From the IMG/VR virus record IMGVR_UViG_3300034104_001995, positions 1 to 36,639 of that record: a stretch of DNA of 36,639 bases; one strand, given 5' to 3'. Source of the stretch: a virus. Numbering within the stretch: the first letter of the stretch is position 1; the number at the start of each line of letters is the position of its first letter. The position numbers and the translations under genes are program-made. The notes beneath the pieces are model-generated. The model made no database searches. It was not told where the DNA came from and saw nothing but the letters and a program-made list of their open reading frames with translations. Below are positions 15,668 through 25,051 of this stretch, piece by piece.

Positions 15668-16837
15668 TTAGCTTGCGCCACCCTTGAAGTACTTGACGTG
15701 GTTAGCGTGGGTTAGGTTACCATCCACACGCATCTTGACACGGAAAGTTGTTACATCCTGGTTGAACGCATAGTCAGGTGACTGTGCAATGTCAATACCG
15801 CCAGCAACACGAACCTTGTATGAAGGTAGGTGACCGAACAGTACAGATCTAGCACCAGTAGCAACAGCAGCAACAGCAGGGTTCTCGTATACAGGGAAGC
15901 CTAGAACTTGGTCAGGCGCACCAGCAGTACCTGGAACGAAGATGTAGTTACCTGCGCCATCCTTCAACTTGCGAAGAACACCAAGTGAAGAAGTAGACAT
16001 CTGGAAACCAACACCTGGAAGCGCACGAGCAGCTCCGTCTAGGTTGTATACAAGGTCAACTAGGTTGTCGTAAGTGAAAGCACCTGACACACCAGTCCCG
16101 CCAGTTACAGCAGAACCAGCCTGAGTTGATAGACCAAACGGCTGTACAGTTCCAGTACCAATGGTTAGGTCACGGTTTACTGCGAAACCAATCTCGTTAC
16201 CAGCCTGTTCAGCGATAAGAGATGTTAGGTCAAATCCAGCATCAGCGATCAGTTCGTTCGCCACGCCAACCAAGAAGCTATATTTATACGCTCCAAGGGT
16301 GATGCTTGAGAATGTTGGATCGCTTGCACCAATAGCAGCAGTCGCAGTAGCGATAGCAGCAGTTGAACGAGCTGTCAGAGTTGGGATAGTTAGGTTCTCA
16401 CCAGAAGTAGTGTTGAAGATCTGGCTTGTCTGCAACATAGGGCCAACAAGTCTTGCAACCTGGAAAACCTGGTTGTAGAAAGACTGTGGAACTGTGTTGC
16501 TTGAACCAACTAGAGTACGCTTTTCTGGAGCAAACTCGTAACCCTTACGCTCGCCCAAAGCGATTGAACGAAGGATGTCAGAGTCTGCTGAAATAGCGCT
16601 CTCGGTTGGCTTGAATGAGGCAGCAGCTTCAGCCGCTCTCTCTTCACGCTCTGCGGTTGCCTTGATTGAGTCAATGAGCTTTGCTCTTTCGTCAATGTCA
16701 GCCATGATACGCTCGTAAGTCTGTGTTTCTTCACCTGAAAGATCACGCTTTTCAGCTGCTGCATTGTCAAGCAAAGCCTTAGCTTGCTCGTATGCTGACT
16801 TACGGGCTTCTTGCTGGATTTTAATAAATTCAGACAT
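15668..16837 (-). CDS. Major capsid protein (HK97 fold)
   Basis: The 389-residue protein has a helical charged N-terminal scaffold (delta) domain over residues 1 to about 95, rich in E, K and A, then VPQSFYNQVFQVARLVGPML, SGENLTIPTLTARSTA and FAVNRDLTIGTGT...QPFG, the typical HK97-capsid order. The fold assembles T-number shells, and the delta domain is removed by the protease encoded upstream. A strong AGGAGC ribosome binding site and a long leader with tRNA-like folds and two direct repeats precede it, and terminators lie on both sides, so it is a separate transcription unit. Confidence 0.93.
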   Translation of the reverse strand: MSEFIKIQQEARKSAYEQAKALLDNAAAEKRDLSGEETQTYERIMADIDERAKLIDSIKATAEREERAAEAAASFKPTESAISADSDILRSIALGERKGYEFAPEKRTLVGSSNTVPQSFYNQVFQVARLVGPMLQTSQIFNTTSGENLTIPTLTARSTAAIATATAAIGASDPTFSSITLGAYKYSFLVGVANELIADAGFDLTSLIAEQAGNEIGFAVNRDLTIGTGTVQPFGLSTQAGSAVTGGTGVSGAFTYDNLVDLVYNLDGAARALPGVGFQMSTSSLGVLRKLKDGAGNYIFVPGTAGAPDQVLGFPVYENPAVAAVATGARSVLFGHLPSYKVRVAGGIDIAQSPDYAFNQDVTTFRVKMRVDGNLTHANHVKYFKGGAS

Positions 16838-16873: not shown

Positions 16874-16916
16874 GCGGTGCTGACACTCAACAGATGTAGC
16901 GGTGCTGACACTCAAC
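16874..16916. repeat. Two 18-bp direct repeats in the capsid leader
   Basis: GCGGTGCTGACACTCAAC is present exactly at 16874-16891 and 16899-16916, 25 bp apart start to start. They lie between the tmRNA-like element and the capsid ribosome binding site. On the minus strand they read GTTGAGTGTCAGCACCGC. They could be a repressor or activator operator, or an RNA-binding site for translational control of capsid. Confidence 0.85.
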
Positions 16917-16959: not shown

Positions 16960-17038
16960 TGGACTAGCAGAGATTCGAACTCTGGTGCTAACAAGTTCCT
17001 TTACAGGTTTTACTTGTCAGACGAAACCGACCTAGCCC
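16960..17038 (-). ncRNA. Minimal tmRNA-like / alanine tRNA-like RNA (79 nt)
   Basis: A 7-bp acceptor stem (GGGCTAG with CTAGTCC) contains the G3-U70 wobble used by alanyl-tRNA synthetase, and the next base is A73. The T-arm is perfect: CAGAG, loop TTCGAAT, CTCTG. Instead of a D-arm and anticodon arm, the 5' part reads GTCGGTTTCGTCTG, like the CGGTTTCGACT region of actinobacterial tmRNA as I recall it. It continues into a 9-bp helix (CTGACAAGT with ACTTGTTAG) closed by a 15-nt loop. No 5+7+5 anticodon arm fits. There is no tag reading frame and no encoded CCA. Most likely a tRNA-like domain without the mRNA part. Confidence 0.6.
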
Positions 17039-17042
17039 TTTG

Positions 17043-17125
17043 TGAACTGATAAGGAATCGCACCCCTGACATCCATACGGAAGCCATCTCACCGCCATAT
17101 TCACAATGGTCAGGCAGTTCAGTTC
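17043..17125 (-). ncRNA. Degenerate tRNA-like fold upstream of the tmRNA-like RNA
   Basis: A 7-bp end stem (GAACTGA with TCAGTTC) encloses a 6-bp helix (CCTGAC with GTCAGG), a hairpin CCAT-TGTGAAT-ATGG and a T-loop-like GGTGCGATTCC. The D-arm and anticodon arm are not standard. It ends five bases before the tmRNA-like element, like genes in a tRNA cluster. It may be a decayed tRNA or another structured leader segment. Confidence 0.3.
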
Positions 17126-17128
17126 TAG

Positions 17129-17180
17129 GGCTAATTGATTGCACATTCAAGCTCACACGAGTACATACGGAACACTAGCC
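17129..17180 (-). ncRNA. Third, very small tRNA-like fold (52 nt)
   Basis: A 6-bp end stem (GGCTAG with TTAGCC, one G-U) encloses a short CTC-GTGT-GAG hairpin and a T-arm-like TTGA-ATGTGCAA-TCAA hairpin. At 52 nt it is too short for a normal tRNA. It is listed because it stands in a row with two others; chance folding cannot be excluded. Confidence 0.2.
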
Positions 17181-17216
17181 AAATTCACGCTCTACAAACA
17201 CTTTATCAGGGTGAAA

Positions 17217-17276: not shown

Positions 17277-17438
17277 CTAGCGAGTTTCTTTGGTTTCAAC
17301 AACCCTGACTTCTTTAGCAGGGGTGTCAATCGCAATAATTGCATCAGCAAACGCTTCAGCCAAATCTCTTACAACACCGACCGCAGGGTTACCAGCGGTT
17401 TCAAGTATAGCGGTAACAATCTGTTCTTTAGTAGCCAT
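17277..17438 (-). CDS. Small protein downstream of the prohead protease (53 aa)
   Basis: The frame MATKEQIVTAILETAGNPAV continues with an Ala/Asp-rich helix and ends AKEVRVVETKETR. It starts in a TAATG overlap with the protease stop and ends just before the terminator. Small acidic helical proteins at this place are frequent in actinophages, by recollection; a scaffold or capsid-assembly helper role is possible but not shown. Confidence 0.65.
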   Translation of the reverse strand: MATKEQIVTAILETAGNPAVGVVRDLAEAFADAIIAIDTPAKEVRVVETKETR

Positions 17439-18580
17439 TAGAGCATCTTTCCTTCAAGTTCGTGTTTCTTCTGTTTCAATGATAGCAGGTTTGGTTCAGG
17501 TTTAGCTTCAACTTCTTCAACCTTCTCGGTTTCTTCAGTTACTGGCTCTTCAGCCTTCTCACCCTTAGTCATCTGCTTGATAACGTTCTGAAGCAGATCT
17601 GCTTGGTCAGGTGTAAGTGAATCTTCAGTTTCTAAAGCTAACAGGGCATCAGATAGTTTCTCAACTTCAACTTGATCTATGGAACGTACTTGGGCAACAC
17701 TTGCTTCGTAGGCTGGAAAGGTCACGATACTCACTTCTATTAGGCGGACAGACTCTAGGGTTCTAACATTACCATCAGGTGACCAAGAATCGGACTGGAC
17801 ATTGAAACCGAAAGACATCTTGTTGATGTCACCTCGTTGCATCAAAATACTTAGGTCTTTGCCACGAGTAGTAGGTGCAAGATCGGCTTCAACCCTCAAA
17901 CCTTTAGAGTCCTCAAACAAGCGCATAGTGCCAGCACGAGTGCTACCTAACACTTCACCTGAATCGTGATTCCACAACAGTTTCACATCATTGCGAGCTT
18001 GCAGAGAACGCTTGAAAGCCCCTGGAGCTATACGCTCAATGAAAGGCAATGGCTGGCTATCACTATTGAACACAGCAGCATACCCTGAGAACGTCATCTT
18101 GTCCCCATCAGCACGAATCTCAAAATCAACATCAGAAACACGAGTTTCAGGTGCTGGCTTAATACCGTTTATCTTACGGAGAGTTGCCATAATCTTTTCG
18201 GCTCTACTATTAGCCCTCAAAACAACATCACTCATCAAATTCCTTTGTTTATCTGATTCCCTATCAACAATACCACGACTCCAAGTAAAGCCAGCATCTC
18301 CGCCCCAAGCATCCCACATGATACGACCATTTGAAGGATTATCGGTGTTGTAGAAATCTTTGCCTTTTTTATCTACTTCGTGTCTTGCGAAAAACGAGTA
18401 CATCCGTTTGACCACACTCAAAGACATGGATCTGCCAGCCACAATGTCCGTAGCTCTACCCCAACCAACAGGAGTGCCAGCACCAGTAGCCTTGCCTTCT
18501 TTTTTCCAACGCAAAGCCCTCGCAGCAGCAGTTTTCATGCCCTGTGTTGGCTTGTAGGTGGCTACGGCTCTGGTGTCCAT
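17438..18580 (-). CDS. Prohead protease (HK97/S78 family) with an extra N-terminal domain
   Basis: Residues about 148-300 hold the S78 protease: IRADGDKMTFSGYAAVFNSD, FIERIAPGAFKRSL, the catalytic-His region LLWNHDSGEVLGST and the Ser-containing INKMSFGFNV. Residues 1 to about 105 form an additional domain (RALRWKKEGKATGAGTPVGWGRA, SVVKRMYSFFARHEVDKKGKDF, GRIMWDAWGGDAG) seen elsewhere in phages on its own or fused to head proteins. The C-terminal 80 residues are acidic and helical and may act as scaffold. It should mature the capsid by cutting off the delta domain. Confidence 0.88.
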   Translation of the reverse strand: MDTRAVATYKPTQGMKTAAARALRWKKEGKATGAGTPVGWGRATDIVAGRSMSLSVVKRMYSFFARHEVDKKGKDFYNTDNPSNGRIMWDAWGGDAGFTWSRGIVDRESDKQRNLMSDVVLRANSRAEKIMATLRKINGIKPAPETRVSDVDFEIRADGDKMTFSGYAAVFNSDSQPLPFIERIAPGAFKRSLQARNDVKLLWNHDSGEVLGSTRAGTMRLFEDSKGLRVEADLAPTTRGKDLSILMQRGDINKMSFGFNVQSDSWSPDGNVRTLESVRLIEVSIVTFPAYEASVAQVRSIDQVEVEKLSDALLALETEDSLTPDQADLLQNVIKQMTKGEKAEEPVTEETEKVEEVEAKPEPNLLSLKQKKHELEGKML

Positions 18581-18799: not shown

Positions 18800-18960
18800 T
18801 AGTTTCCTTCTTGTAGGGATTGCAGAGTTGCAACCTGTTGTTCTAGTGACTCTACTTTAGCCACCAAGACAATCATAGCGTTATAGGCTGCTTCCAAGCC
18901 ATCAGGGTTGATGTAGTCGCTCTGCTTCCATTCCGCCAAAAAATTGTTTATTTCATTCAT
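18799..18960 (-). CDS. Small helical protein after the tail fibre (53 aa)
   Basis: Translation gives MNEINNFLAEWKQSDYINPDG, then a coiled-coil helix ending AKVESLEQQVATLQSLQEGN. It begins in a TAATG overlap with the fibre stop and ends in a TAATG overlap with the next gene. The tight coupling to the fibre gene and the coiled coil suggest a fibre assembly chaperone, which is inference. Confidence 0.6.
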   Translation of the reverse strand: MNEINNFLAEWKQSDYINPDGLEAAYNAMIVLVAKVESLEQQVATLQSLQEGN

Positions 18961-21900
18961 TATGTCCAAGTCCCAACTGTGGTTACTGTTCCATTACCGA
19001 TAGGTGTCAGATTGAAGATAAGCCCTGATTGTACGATCCAAGTGTTGTCGTTAGTTGCTGAAGCCGATAGACCTGGATAGATCTTTGTTGTACCTGTACC
19101 TGTAACCCTAATAATACCTTTGGCTCTAAGAATACCGTATCTTGATCCTGAAGAAATTGGGGTCATAAAGGCTACGTTTCCTGTGGTTCTAACGGTAGAC
19201 ATAGTGGTAGCAGTAACGAAAGAAGTTGTGTTGCTTCCATAATCTACATAGCTTGTGACCGCCACAGTAGGTGAACCGCTGACAGTAGTGTTTACTATTT
19301 GGAATGTTCCCTGCACACCTGAAGTAACCACAAAGTCATGTTGTACAGCTAGTTCTATCTCGTATTCATAAGTTGTTCCAGCAGCCACAGTAATTCCTGT
19401 TGTTGGGCCACCGATCATGCTTTGAACTGCACCGCTCTCAGAGAAGTCAATAAAGAAGTCTGAGTTAGAGATGTAATAGTAGTTTTGTGTCTTTAAAGCT
19501 CTACCAGGTGTGATGTTTGATGTCTGATAGTAGACTGTGCCGTCATACTCGTTTGCTCCAGCAGTAACTGTTGTCAGGTTTGTGCCTGACTGGAATGTTA
19601 GTGGAGATAGGCTTGTTGTTCCAGCAGCTAGGGTTAGGTTGCCTGTTAGTGTTCCACCAGTAAATGATCCGCCAGATACGGTTGTCCAAGTAGGTGTTGA
19701 ACCTGCACCGCTAGAAGTAAGAACTTGACCTGATGTTCCTGGGTTTCCGCCTAAAATGATTGATGCGTTTGTTCCTGCAATGCTTAGGCTTCCAGATGTT
19801 GTAAAAGATGCTAGGACTGTTCCTGCCGAGTTTTGTAGTTGTAGTAAATCTGCTGTTTGAGAGCTAGTTGCACGAATTACTTGACCAATAATTCCAGCGT
19901 TCAATGTCTTTATGTTTGATGTCGCTGAGAACCAAGAACTTGTACCTGCAAGCATGGCTGCTGAAGTTCCGATATCTCCAGCAGAGTTTACGCTGGCTAA
20001 TACTGTTCCTGCTGAATTTTGCCACTCTTGCAAGTTAGCGGACTGAGAAGCAGCACCACGAATTATTAAGCCCTTATTGGTTGCAGAACTACTATAAATA
20101 CCTGCTTGAATTGAACCAGCCGTAGAGTTAGCACCGACAGTAAAAGTTCCTGCGGCAAAAGTATTATTAAACGGATCAACTCTAAAATGAGTGCTTCCTG
20201 CTCGTTGAACAAGCAAAGAATCTGAACTTGTTGTTTGATTGTTGATGAATAATGCTCCGTCAGCAGAGATGTCTGCAATGACAGTTCCACCAGAGTTTTG
20301 CCATTGCTGGAGATCGCCCGTTGCGCCAGATACTTGTCGAACAACGACATGTGGGTTCGTGCCAACGCTTCCACCTGCTTGAATACGAGCAGTCTGCCCA
20401 GAGTTTAGCGAACCGTAATAAGTCGCACCAATAATGCTAAAACCTGTGGACTGGCTAGAAGTAAAAGTTCCTGCGCTAGTCACCCATGCAACAGCATTAT
20501 TTGATGAATCTCTTGCTTCTAAAAGATTTGCTGTCTGCCCTGTTGCGCCACGAATAACAGCACCAACAGTTGTCGAAGAAGAAGCTACTGAAGTTAATTG
20601 CCCTAAACCAGAAGAAGCTCCAGTAGTAATAGAGCCATACTGCACAACCAAGCTATTTGAAGAATCAACTGTAAATACAGGTGTAGATCCGCTATTTTGG
20701 ATTTGAAAGTACGGAACTGATTGGGATGCTGCACCACGAATTAGTTGACCAATACCACCCGAAGCATGAACAGTAATACCAAGCGTTGCGGACAGATCCG
20801 TTCCACCAAGGTTTAGACGGTTTACATTGTTTACAGGAGCAGTAAAGTTTGCTGTAATGCTACCAGCAGAGTTTTGCAACTCAAACATGCTGGCTGTCTG
20901 ACTTGCCTGACCACGAACAACCAGACCCTTCTCAGTAGTAGCCCTAGCCAACACATTCAAAGCAGCAGAAAAATAAGTTGAAGTACCGACTCGGTGATCA
21001 CCAGAAGTAACACCAATACCCGAAATAATTAGGTTACCTGCTGGCTCAACTCTTGCAACTGAAGTTCCAGCAGCATTTTGCCATTCTTGTAAATTTGCGC
21101 CTTGGCTTACAGTAGCCGAACCACCAGAAGTGTAAGTATCAGTCACAGCACTTGTAACAGTAAACTGAGTTTGGCTGATAACGGATGCCACAGTAGCAGC
21201 GTTAATGTTGAATCCAGTATTAGCAGTACCAGAAGGGTTACCTGTCGATACGATACCTGTGATCGTTAGCACCTGACCAACTAAAAATTCATGTTGAGCA
21301 GAAGTAGTGTAAGTAATTGCAGTACCGTTACCAGTAGCCCCAGTAATCGTAGAAGTGAGTGTTGTAGCTGCTTTTACAATTAAGCCTTTACCTGAAGGTG
21401 TGCTTGGCTGGAAAGTAGCAGTCCTGTTTGTGTCCCAAACCATTGGGAACTTGTTTTGAAAACCAAAACCTGTTCCTGGCTTAGACATGTAAGCCATCAA
21501 AGAACCTATTTGATAAGTGTCACCAGCAGACCAAAGAGCCATGTCAAAAGTTACACGAGTAGCTCTAGTGCTTCCGTTGTATGAGTTGAACTTCTGCATC
21601 AAAGCAGCACCATCAAACCCTACAACTCCAGTAGTAGGGCCAAAACTAGAGTTTACTGTCGTAAAGTCAGCATTTAGTAACTCTGTTTTCATTGTGATTG
21701 GCTTGTTGTTTGTTCCACCGACAAAACGAGCAGAAACTAACCCTAGGAATGTAAACAAAGGTTGATAGTGAGTGATGCGTAAAAATCTTGTTGTGACATT
21801 GATTTGAGATCCATTTTGAAACGCAAATAGTGATCTGTAAGCAGTCGGGTTTACTACACTCCAAGTAGTGCCGTCAGCAGAAGTTTCCACTACGTTAGGT

Positions 21901-22796
21901 ATTTTGAAGCCCCAGTAAGGGTAGTAGCCTTCTTCGTTAGGTAGCATCACAGGAGTAGAGAATCCTGCGTTAGTTGACAAGCTACCTTCAGCGTAAGTGC
22001 CTGGTGAACCAGTACCGTAAAGCACACCAAAAATGTTTGGGTTAGTAATTGTTCCAGAAATACCTAGATAAGAGCTGGTTGAAATCACTCCGCTAGAGTC
22101 AACTTTTGCTCCAACAGTTCCAGCACTATTTTGCCATTGCTGTAAATCAGCCGTCTGGCTTGCTGCGCCACGAATCAAAGCACCGACAGTTGTAGATGAA
22201 CCAGCAATAGCAGTAATTTGTGCAAGACCTGACGTTGTGCCAGAGCGAACTTGACCAGTATTTAGATTGCCAGCAGAAGTAATAGAACTTAGAACGCTTG
22301 ATGCTGAGTTCTGCCACTCCTGCAAGTTAGCCGATTGTGAAGCAGCTCCACGCACAATCACACCAACGTTAGTTGCAGAAGCAGAATAAACGCCCAACTG
22401 CACACCAGAAGAAAGCGAACTCAAACCAATAGTCACACGACCAGAAGTAAGCATGTTGTTAAAGTTCTGGTAGAAACCGTTGTGAGTGATAGTGTCGCTA
22501 AAAGTTTGTGTGCCAGCAAAAGTGTTTCCACCAGAAAGATTAGCTTTACCAGCCAGATCTGTAACAAGGTTAGTTACCTGCGACTGAGCAATAGTCAACC
22601 CACCCTGATTAATACCAATCACAGGAGCAGTAGGCGTACCCGAATTAGTTATAGGAGCTGTAACAGCAACCGAACCAACAGAACCAGGCGTGTTAGTTAC
22701 AGTAAAAGTCCATGCAACACCATTCCAAGTGTAAACAACGCCACCATAAGTGAACTGATCACCTATGGCTGGACTAGAAGGATAAGGGACAGCCAT
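18960..22796 (-). CDS. Long repeat tail fibre (1278 aa)
   Basis: The N-terminus AVPYPSSPAIGDQFTYGGVV and VYTWNGVAWTFT is a common fibre attachment motif. The body carries about nine degenerate repeats of the form IRGAASQTANLQEWQNSAGT, separated by Gly/Thr/Ser-rich beta segments, as in trimeric beta-helical fibre shafts. A unique central part (about residues 270-450) and a C-terminal part (about 1090-1278) with strand-rich sequence are likely receptor-binding or trimerisation domains. It is placed between portal and protease instead of beyond the tape measure. The repeats make it a likely site of recombination and length variation. Confidence 0.85.
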   Translation of the reverse strand: MAVPYPSSPAIGDQFTYGGVVYTWNGVAWTFTVTNTPGSVGSVAVTAPITNSGTPTAPVIGINQGGLTIAQSQVTNLVTDLAGKANLSGGNTFAGTQTFSDTITHNGFYQNFNNMLTSGRVTIGLSSLSSGVQLGVYSASATNVGVIVRGAASQSANLQEWQNSASSVLSSITSAGNLNTGQVRSGTTSGLAQITAIAGSSTTVGALIRGAASQTADLQQWQNSAGTVGAKVDSSGVISTSSYLGISGTITNPNIFGVLYGTGSPGTYAEGSLSTNAGFSTPVMLPNEEGYYPYWGFKIPNVVETSADGTTWSVVNPTAYRSLFAFQNGSQINVTTRFLRITHYQPLFTFLGLVSARFVGGTNNKPITMKTELLNADFTTVNSSFGPTTGVVGFDGAALMQKFNSYNGSTRATRVTFDMALWSAGDTYQIGSLMAYMSKPGTGFGFQNKFPMVWDTNRTATFQPSTPSGKGLIVKAATTLTSTITGATGNGTAITYTTSAQHEFLVGQVLTITGIVSTGNPSGTANTGFNINAATVASVISQTQFTVTSAVTDTYTSGGSATVSQGANLQEWQNAAGTSVARVEPAGNLIISGIGVTSGDHRVGTSTYFSAALNVLARATTEKGLVVRGQASQTASMFELQNSAGSITANFTAPVNNVNRLNLGGTDLSATLGITVHASGGIGQLIRGAASQSVPYFQIQNSGSTPVFTVDSSNSLVVQYGSITTGASSGLGQLTSVASSSTTVGAVIRGATGQTANLLEARDSSNNAVAWVTSAGTFTSSQSTGFSIIGATYYGSLNSGQTARIQAGGSVGTNPHVVVRQVSGATGDLQQWQNSGGTVIADISADGALFINNQTTSSDSLLVQRAGSTHFRVDPFNNTFAAGTFTVGANSTAGSIQAGIYSSSATNKGLIIRGAASQSANLQEWQNSAGTVLASVNSAGDIGTSAAMLAGTSSWFSATSNIKTLNAGIIGQVIRATSSQTADLLQLQNSAGTVLASFTTSGSLSIAGTNASIILGGNPGTSGQVLTSSGAGSTPTWTTVSGGSFTGGTLTGNLTLAAGTTSLSPLTFQSGTNLTTVTAGANEYDGTVYYQTSNITPGRALKTQNYYYISNSDFFIDFSESGAVQSMIGGPTTGITVAAGTTYEYEIELAVQHDFVVTSGVQGTFQIVNTTVSGSPTVAVTSYVDYGSNTTSFVTATTMSTVRTTGNVAFMTPISSGSRYGILRAKGIIRVTGTGTTKIYPGLSASATNDNTWIVQSGLIFNLTPIGNGTVTTVGTWT

Positions 22797-23374: not shown

Positions 23375-23718
23375 CTAGTCACCTGCGGTGTGACCACAAA
23401 TTTGCCTTGTAGCAAGCGGTCTGTAACTCCACCACCTGAAGTTATTTCAAGGTCATACTGATAGAAACCTTCATTGATAGATGATGTAGCGGTAGAAGAA
23501 GCAAGGATAGCGATAGTGCCAGCAGTACCACCAAGAGTGATGCCTGTACCAGAAGTCAAAGATAAGACAGTTGCAGTTGAATCGTAAGTTTCACGAACCT
23601 GCATAGCAGCTGTATAGCCAGTCAAGTTCATTGCAAGACCATTGACAGTAATAGTAAAAGTTCTGTCAAAGGTTGCACCCTGTGGGCAAGTGATGTTGTA
23701 TGTGCCTGGATTAATCAT
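23371..23718 (-). CDS. Ig-like/BppU N-terminal-like small structural protein (115 aa)
   Basis: The protein MINPGTYNITCPQGATFDRTF then gives VNGLAMNLTGYTAAMQVRE, SLTSGTGITLGGTAG, EGFYQYDLEITSGG and RLLQGKFVVTPQV. This order is typical of small beta-sandwich proteins related to the N-terminus of lactococcal-phage BppU. It starts inside the portal 3' end (8-nt overlap), which rules out the longer frame. It may be the adaptor that fixes the fibre to the virion. Confidence 0.65.
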   Translation of the reverse strand: MINPGTYNITCPQGATFDRTFTITVNGLAMNLTGYTAAMQVRETYDSTATVLSLTSGTGITLGGTAGTIAILASSTATSSINEGFYQYDLEITSGGGVTDRLLQGKFVVTPQVTR

Positions 23719-25051
23719 CTTCAACCTCATCTTCCATCTCTTCATCTTCAGGTTCTTCAGGTTCAACCATCATAGGCTGTGCAGACACAGTACCGACATA
23801 CGGCATAGCAGGTAAACCAAGTTCCATCAACACAGCTTCAGGGTCATAACCAGCGTTCACAAGCGTTTCAGCCATCTTCACCTTGATCTGTGTTTCAGAT
23901 AGATCCGCTGCACCAATGCTGATGTTAGCCAAAGGCACTCTAAACGCATCTCCGCCCTCAACTAAAGGCTCATCTTCCAACTTCTTTATTTCGTTGATTG
24001 ACTTGAAGCCAGCCTGAGTAGCGATTGAGTACGCTTGGTAACGGCTTTGAAGGTCACCACGAAGCAAAGCAGAGAAATTGAACTTGATAAACGCATTGTT
24101 AGGCAAAATACGGCTGTAAGCCCACTCTAACTTCTCCAAAATAGGTCTAAGAGTGTGAGAAATGAACTGTAAGTTGTTTTGTTCAACCGAAGCGTAGCTC
24201 GCTGTGTCAGGAATACCTAGCATGTGCAACGGAATGTTGAAAGCACGAGCAATCTCTTCCACAGCAAACCTGCGAGAATCCAAGAACTGTGCCTGATCGT
24301 TAGGAACAGTAGTAGTAACATACTTAGCTCCACCAGAAAGAACGCCAGTCTTGTGTGACTTTCTCAAACCTCTGTGGCGAGAGTCAAAACCATCACGCAA
24401 ATCTCTAGCTTCTTCCGAAGTTAGTTCCCCAGGGTACTCAATGATGCCGTTTGTGCTAGATCCGTTAGAGAAAAAGCGAGCAGCATACGACTGTAAAGCA
24501 GTAGCGACACCGAGAGCATCTTTCAACTTGTCTACTCTGGATAGTCCAGTAAGTGAGCCTGGTGTCGCTAGGTCTATGATGTGGATTACTTCATCAGAAG
24601 TTAGTGGCTTAGGTTCGTCAGCGTAAATAAACATTTTGCGACCGATAGCAGAACGTCTAACTTCCATCTTTGTAGGATCTAAAGCTACAAGGTTGACTAC
24701 ATCACCACGATTATCTCTGAAAACTCTGGTGTACGAGTTACCGAACACAAGTAGAGAAGCCACGACAGCTCCATAGTGTGCTTGACGAGTTGTGTCTACG
24801 TCTGGCTGTTCAATCCATAGTGGTTTAGGTCTGTAAGGGCTACGCTCGCCATCAATACGCTTGAACGCATCCACAGGCAAAGTAGAGATAGTGTCGCTGA
24901 TAAGGCTTACAGCAGAGAAGAACGCAACAATCTCGTAGGCAGTATTGCCGTTGATCGTTGTGCCAGACTGAGTTTCTGTTGCAAAATCCCCACCCTGCGA
25001 GAAAATGCTCTGATAAGAAACAGCACGTTTAATGAAAAGATTTTCAAGCAT
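23711..25051 (-). CDS. Portal protein (HK97 family)
   Basis: The 446-residue protein has the portal landmarks FFSAVSLISDTISTLPV near residue 45, FGNSYTRVFRDNRGDVVNL near 102 and FNIPLHMLGIPDTASYASVE near 271, followed by the helical crown. The C-terminal 40 residues are strongly acidic (EPEEPEDEEMEDEVEDD). The portal forms the dodecameric ring through which DNA is packaged and ejected. It is coupled to the tiny membrane protein upstream by TAATG and to the Ig-like protein downstream. Confidence 0.93.
   Translation of the reverse strand: MLENLFIKRAVSYQSIFSQGGDFATETQSGTTINGNTAYEIVAFFSAVSLISDTISTLPVDAFKRIDGERSPYRPKPLWIEQPDVDTTRQAHYGAVVASLLVFGNSYTRVFRDNRGDVVNLVALDPTKMEVRRSAIGRKMFIYADEPKPLTSDEVIHIIDLATPGSLTGLSRVDKLKDALGVATALQSYAARFFSNGSSTNGIIEYPGELTSEEARDLRDGFDSRHRGLRKSHKTGVLSGGAKYVTTTVPNDQAQFLDSRRFAVEEIARAFNIPLHMLGIPDTASYASVEQNNLQFISHTLRPILEKLEWAYSRILPNNAFIKFNFSALLRGDLQSRYQAYSIATQAGFKSINEIKKLEDEPLVEGGDAFRVPLANISIGAADLSETQIKVKMAETLVNAGYDPEAVLMELGLPAMPYVGTVSAQPMMVEPEEPEDEEMEDEVEDD

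Follow-up and report, generated by a model that had tools for sequence, protein, structure and literature searches.

The 79-nt stretch at positions 16960-17038 of the window (the whole stretch of DNA analyzed here, a tailed-phage contig of 36,639 nucleotides from a virus record) almost certainly encodes, on its minus strand, a phage-borne tmRNA without a message, i.e., a CDS-less or "TLD-only" tmRNA. Judged by its conservation among relatives, it is a real phage RNA that has been maintained by selection, and the comparisons show a predicted architecture in which the tmRNA acceptor with its alanine determinants, the D-loop sequence, the base of P2 and the T-arm have been kept and a conserved small cap replaces the message and pseudoknot domain. 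Trans-translation is nearly universal in bacteria, and to our knowledge the ways in which phages deal with it have been little studied. That so compact an RNA occurs in unrelated phages and diverse gene neighborhoods, and that its capacity for alanine charging is strictly selected, suggests that phages have a general way of countering ribosome rescue or of turning it to their own use. This idea can be tested with the ~80-nt RNAs of the cultured phages Shaeky, GiJojo, phiPsal1 and Jojan60, where they are unannotated or lie under a hypothetical-protein call. Recognition of the family also fills an annotation gap, in that copies like that of the window escape both ARAGORN and Rfam.

Structure of the RNA

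The RNA reads GGGCUAGGUCGGUUUCGUCUGACAAGUAAAACCUGUAAAGGAACUUGUUAGCACCAGAGUUCGAAUCUCUGCUAGUCCA (79 nt, minus strand of 16960-17038), with its 5' end at 17038 and A73 at 16960; CCA is not encoded in the window copy. The features of the RNA and its surroundings are the following.

16960..17038, minus strand: whole RNA, almost certainly a message-less tmRNA (covariance model R1, 71.2 bits, window outside the training set; fold)
17032..17038, minus strand: acceptor stem 5' strand GGGCUAG, G3 at 17036 (G3-U70 in 98 of 98 distinct members)
17022..17028, minus strand: tmRNA-type D-loop element GGUUUCG (shared with host-family tmRNAs, UCGGUUUCGAC; as the element belongs to the search pattern, its invariance is in part imposed)
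17012..17020, minus strand: P2 helix 5' strand CUGACAAGU (all 8 modeled P2 pairs covary)
16997..17011, minus strand: cap, consisting of an AAAA internal loop, the mini-hairpin P3 (CCU-GUAA-AGG) and an A (conserved across the family)
16988..16996, minus strand: P2 helix 3' strand ACUUGUUAG (covariation of the P2 pairs)
16985..16987, minus strand: linker CAC, replaced by GAC in the majority of members (covariation of its first base with 17021, as U:C in the window and mostly as A:G elsewhere)
16968..16984, minus strand: T-arm CAGAG-UUCGAAU-CUCUG (sequence; family alignment)
16960..16967, minus strand: acceptor stem 3' strand CUAGUCC plus A73, U70 equivalent at 16963 (A73 in 98 of 98 distinct members)
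17200..17205, minus strand: possible -10 box TAAAGT (sequence comparison only)

A first-pass annotation of this DNA had taken the stretch for the tRNA-like end of a tmRNA with its mRNA part removed, and most of what it described is borne out. The acceptor strands pair in all seven positions (17038-17032 with 16967-16961) and carry the G3-U70 and A73 that it named, the T-arm (16984-16968) is as perfect as claimed, and GGUUUCG (17028-17022) lies where actinobacterial tmRNAs carry their D-loop element. Its 9-bp helix also stands, closed by exactly 15 nt, but those nucleotides are not only a loop: behind the AAAA they hold a second helix of 3 bp, CCU-GUAA-AGG, that was missed. This cap occupies the position at which tmRNA carries its message and pseudoknots. 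The unconstrained fold is identical to the proposed structure, at -26.9 kcal/mol (z -3.5; 1 of 200 shuffles equally good), and folding with flanks gives -26.7 kcal/mol (z -2.8).

ARAGORN calls neither a tRNA nor a tmRNA in the window, and the fold, which is not a standard cloverleaf, puts P2 and the cap where an anticodon arm would belong, in agreement with the earlier claim that no such arm fits. An Rfam scan of the region matched neither tRNA nor tmRNA at E<=1, the gathering score for tmRNA (RF00023) thus being out of reach of the window copy, so that the canonical tRNA call that the first-pass annotation had named as counterevidence came from neither program. Other Rfam families were considered as identities and rejected, the window having no match to RF02544 (E<=1) or the others; LhrC, the sole Rfam family near the RNA, has an E of 0.07, far under its cut-off, and sits on an upstream hairpin.

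By length and sequence the window RNA lacks a resume codon and an mRNA-like tag domain, the 15 nt between the P2 strands being free of pseudoknots. A hidden mini-tag was entertained nonetheless: the window and L065, one of its diverged relatives, read K-T-x-x-G-x-x-stop in one frame, and UAGUC-GCU in L065 resembles a resume signal. It was rejected on finding that a stop occurs in that frame in 39 of 94 distinct members (11 and 14 in the other frames), which we attribute to the pairing of CUA...UAG at the P2 base, and is missing from the other 55. The mini-frame is thus not conserved, as befits the tag-less RNA that had been proposed.

Relationship to tmRNA and covariation within the family

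The Rfam tmRNA model spans relatives of the window RNA over its full length (1-374) with the middle deleted. Of 10 short loci, 7 score above its cut-off, as do 31 of 40 whole phage records. Related actinobacterial tmRNAs (L372-L374 and L392-L395) start GGGG....AUCGGUUUCGAC or nearly so, and have the pairing partner of their P2 5' strand right before GGAC and the T-arm, which is the layout of the window RNA; the comparison with host-type ssrA that had been suggested therefore yields a shared D-loop sequence and P2 base. Taken together, the Rfam deletion and the actinobacterial layout indicate that the mini-RNA corresponds to P1, the D-loop, the P2 base and the T-arm of tmRNA, with an AARR/P3 cap in place of everything beyond P2.

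Covariation was assessed in an ungapped alignment (A2) of 18 relatives of equal length, window excluded. In A2, 96.1% of cells are paired under the proposed structure, 17 of the 23 pairs have changed on both sides, and covariation stands at 0.742 versus 0.173 in shuffles (0 of 500 reach it), collapsing when the partners are slid by 1-3 columns; the D-linker is variable among relatives. The covariance model R1, built from A2, finds the window RNA at E ~1e-16 and separates members (53-98 bits) bimodally from ordinary tRNAs (at most 27 bits). A larger alignment of 98 distinct members (A4), which was fitted to R1 and is hence less independent, gives 97% paired cells and covariation of 0.775 versus 0.166. 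Acceptor and T-stem pairing, GGTTTCG, AARRCC and the T-loop letters were required by the member filter and are thus partly imposed; P2, the third P3 pair, G3-U70, A73 and the non-Watson-Crick covariation are free of it.

Among these unimposed features, all 8 P2 pairs covary in A4 (95% paired), which answers the earlier call for compensatory changes in the 9-bp helix, and in homologous leaders with the element both the fold and G3-U70 are retained. The base after GGUUUCG covaries in non-Watson-Crick fashion with the base after P2 (A:G in 75, U:C in 14, including the window, and C:U in 3). G3-U70 is a determinant for alanyl-tRNA synthetase. Acceptor pairs 4-6 vary freely among distinct members and pair 3 is invariably G-U, as would be expected of an RNA selected for its recognition by that enzyme.

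Distribution and genomic setting

The search pattern, which combines D-loop, cap and T-loop (GGTTTCG N7-15 AARRCC N13-30 GTTCGAWTC), occurs in at least 119 stretches of viral sequence, and in 56 stretches among 84,980 bacterial and archaeal species (one genome each), 8 of which score as members; a narrower sub-family pattern alone finds 55 viral stretches. After filtering, at least 130 loci, a few of them overlapping on the same contig, hold a copy of the RNA in 93 distinct sequences, and CCA is encoded in 24 of 94 members. Named carriers include the Streptomyces phages Shaeky, pSt2308, GiJojo, LuckySocke, BRock and Alone3, the Pontimonas phage phiPsal1 and the Stenotrophomonas phage Jojan60; none of them has an annotated RNA over the copy, and in GiJojo a hypothetical ORF is called across it. 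A search of 200 genomes of one actinobacterial family, centered on a Cryobacterium record, turned up no copy (positive control, 5 of 5 found). In Microbacterium phage Armstrong (L380, 1438-1527), an unannotated 90-nt relative of 38.2 bits adjoins tRNA genes; it has GGCAUCG in place of GGUUUCG and a different inner part, and may represent a second sub-family.

In the window, the RNA sits between the genes for the head maturation protease (17438-18580) and the major capsid protein (15668-16837), both on the minus strand, and the contig also encodes terminase, portal, tape measure, a RecE-like exonuclease, Erf and replication genes. A minus-strand ORF of 1278 aa (18960-22796), flanked by the genes for portal (23711-25051) and protease, matches nothing in PHROGs or Pfam. 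By its capsid, the nearest cultured phage is phiPsal1 (50% identity over 99% of the capsid), and since this Pontimonas phage has the same kind of RNA directly upstream of its capsid gene, the host of the window phage is likely to be an aquatic member of the Microbacteriaceae. Among capsid-related IMG/VR contigs, the RNA is present in L002, L004, L014, L023 and L024 and, in diverged form, in L065, L074 and L075; most of the other capsid-related leaders there are without it, so that it appears to be dispensable. Copies in near kin are 94-99% identical to the window RNA, compared to ~45% for the 100 nt upstream, and their substitutions respect pairing (G-U to A-U and G-C to G-U in P2), the P2 of L065 being wholly different in sequence and still complementary.

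Across the family the setting varies. Of 99 members, 38 have tRNA genes at a distance of up to 1 kb, all 130 of these tRNAs being on the member's strand, and 61 have none that near. Among other copies, those of L222 and L248 are flanked by protease and capsid genes and those of L217 and L257 by terminase and portal genes; in L297, L235, L265 and L302 the copy follows a phrog_284 exonuclease, and in L256, L223 and L303 it is near DnaB or polymerase genes. Such varied locations argue that the RNA is a mobile, trans-acting, phage-specific gene and not an element of the capsid leader. A search for SmpB in 40 carrier phage records was negative, its positive control having succeeded in 10 of 14 genomes; whatever SmpB the RNA uses must therefore come from the host.

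In L014 and L004 a box similar to the one at 17200..17205 immediately precedes the RNA, whereas in the window ~160 nt of unrelated sequence intervene (17039-17200). These are missing from L014, L004 and L023, are not unusually structured (z 0.75), and include a 24-nt piece for which L161, the contig of L002, is the sole other place of occurrence. A scan for a sigma-70 consensus directly at the RNA was negative in the window. Across the family, a TANNNT box lies 4-9 nt upstream in 18 of 92 members versus 3-10 in shifted controls, which suggests that perhaps only some copies have a promoter of their own.

Several other elements were noticed in these leaders. Between the RNA and the capsid start, the window has a perfect 18-nt direct repeat, GCGGTGCTGACACTCAAC, at 16874-16891 and 16899-16916 (25 nt apart); many relatives, RNA-less ones included, likewise have repeat pairs of the GAGTGTCAGCACCGC type in their capsid leaders, and on this recurrence the pairs look like a conserved capsid-leader element in their own right. 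L009, L013 and L016, which lack the mini-tmRNA, have in its place, ~90-260 nt ahead of the capsid start, another hairpin-bearing and possibly terminator-ended stretch, and this site may be a hot spot for small RNA genes. In L218 and L215, the ~75 nt immediately before the mini-tmRNA, of the form GUGGACCUGGC...GCCAGGUCCAC, make an 11-bp perfect helix around two hairpins; this element is conserved although the two mini-tmRNAs differ, and is possibly another tRNA-like small RNA.

Possible roles in ribosome rescue

Close structural relatives in many unrelated phages make interference with host ribosome rescue probable. We envisage that the RNA would be transcribed from an upstream promoter or within an array, after which the host would trim its ends, add CCA and charge it with alanine. 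The charged RNA could then bind host SmpB and EF-Tu and rival host tmRNA for SmpB and stalled ribosomes; as it has neither resume codon nor tag, host trans-translation would be blocked, and phage products would be spared tagging or ribosome rescue tuned during infection. That the RNA acts in this way, as an alanylatable competitor or inhibitor of host tmRNA, we give an even chance. A decoy for SmpB and ribosome rescue is also the best supported of the three roles offered by the first-pass annotation, because the TLD-only tmRNA of Mycobacterium phage DS6A (Mao et al. 2009) is reported, in PMC4131195 and PMC11915505, to inhibit tmRNA in E. coli; according to PMC4131195, a similar uncharged molecule inhibited tmRNA as well.

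Pure titration would have no need of perfect alanine determinants, and selection for charging thus suggests something more; since titration alone leaves both these determinants and the conserved cap unexplained, tag-free rescue or a ribosome-blocking role is a further candidate. We tentatively suggest, at somewhat less than even likelihood, that the copies form a widespread and overlooked class of phage RNA, a chargeable message-less tmRNA with a dedicated cap (AARR internal loop and mini-hairpin) that would actively reprogram rescue by entering stalled ribosomes and ending trans-translation tag-free, beyond any titration of SmpB. Full tag-free rescue, in which the alanine-charged RNA with SmpB and EF-Tu would enter stalled ribosomes, take over the nascent chain and exit by drop-off and hydrolysis with its product unmarked, would account for the perfectly kept determinants, but we know of no route by which a chain is released without a resume codon, and consider it unlikely. 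CDS-less mitochondrial tmRNAs, which occur alongside SmpB and are believed to assist with incomplete mRNAs (PMC11915505), lend it some plausibility; the inhibition reported for DS6A, the sole phage-type TLD-only RNA to have been tried, does the opposite.

Functions outside ribosome rescue fare less well. Proximity to phage tRNA genes in 38 of 99 copies, all on the same strand, would suit a counter-defense decoy that draws off host nucleases or modifying enzymes directed at tRNA or tmRNA, and phage tRNA arrays are discussed as an antidefense system (PMC12803027); this reading leaves the tmRNA-specific D-loop, P2 and the missing anticodon arm unexplained, has no tRNA neighbor to appeal to in 61 copies, and is improbable. 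The other two roles suggested at first, an RNase P/Z processing signal or translation control in the capsid leader, have in their favor the RNA's place immediately ahead of the capsid gene, in the window and also in phiPsal1, and a tRNA-like shape that could be an RNase P substrate, but as a general function they are disfavored, and decidedly improbable, given the copies in tRNA arrays, the terminase/portal gap and near replication genes and the same leader without the RNA in most kin. A prophage attachment-site relic, with the host ssrA 3' end copied as attP, is disfavored to the point of being barely credible: some mycobacteriophages do have tRNA or tmRNA 3' ends beside a tyrosine integrase, but here the RNA has the two strands of the acceptor as well as P2, with covariation in each, instead of a 3' part alone, the tested ORFs gave no integrase match, and R1 gives the mycobacteriophage attP copies no more than 16.6 bits.

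Comparison with known systems

The common bacterial tmRNA (ssrA, RF00023) shares with the window RNA an acceptor with G3-U70 and A73, the GGUUUCGAC D-loop, the P2 base, a GAC linker and the T-arm, and differs from it in its length of ~370 nt, with message, tag and pseudoknots, as compared to 79 nt and a small cap. Phage ssrA genes that keep message and tag are likewise known, from the mycobacteriophages Wildcat, Bxz1 and others and from the methylophage Melnitz (PMC9004378), and in Wildcat the tmRNA is the most highly expressed lytic gene of the phage (PMC7474061). The CDS-less tmRNAs of mitochondria (RF02544) and Mallomonadaceae plastids are also without a tag frame (PMC11915505), but belong to organelle lineages, with a nuclear SmpB partner in the case of mitochondria, whereas the phage RNAs bear a distinct cap and come without a phage-encoded SmpB. 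In the open-licence literature we came across neither a broad phage family of this type nor the conserved cap. The closest counterpart is the "TLD only" tmRNA of DS6A (tmID 11587), which, like the window RNA, is phage-encoded, has little beyond the tRNA-like domain and lacks a tag frame, but is described from one phage where the present family is found in many. The message-less phage tmRNA was therefore already known as a kind from DS6A, with which the comparison is by description only, and what appears to be new is the breadth of the family and its conserved cap.
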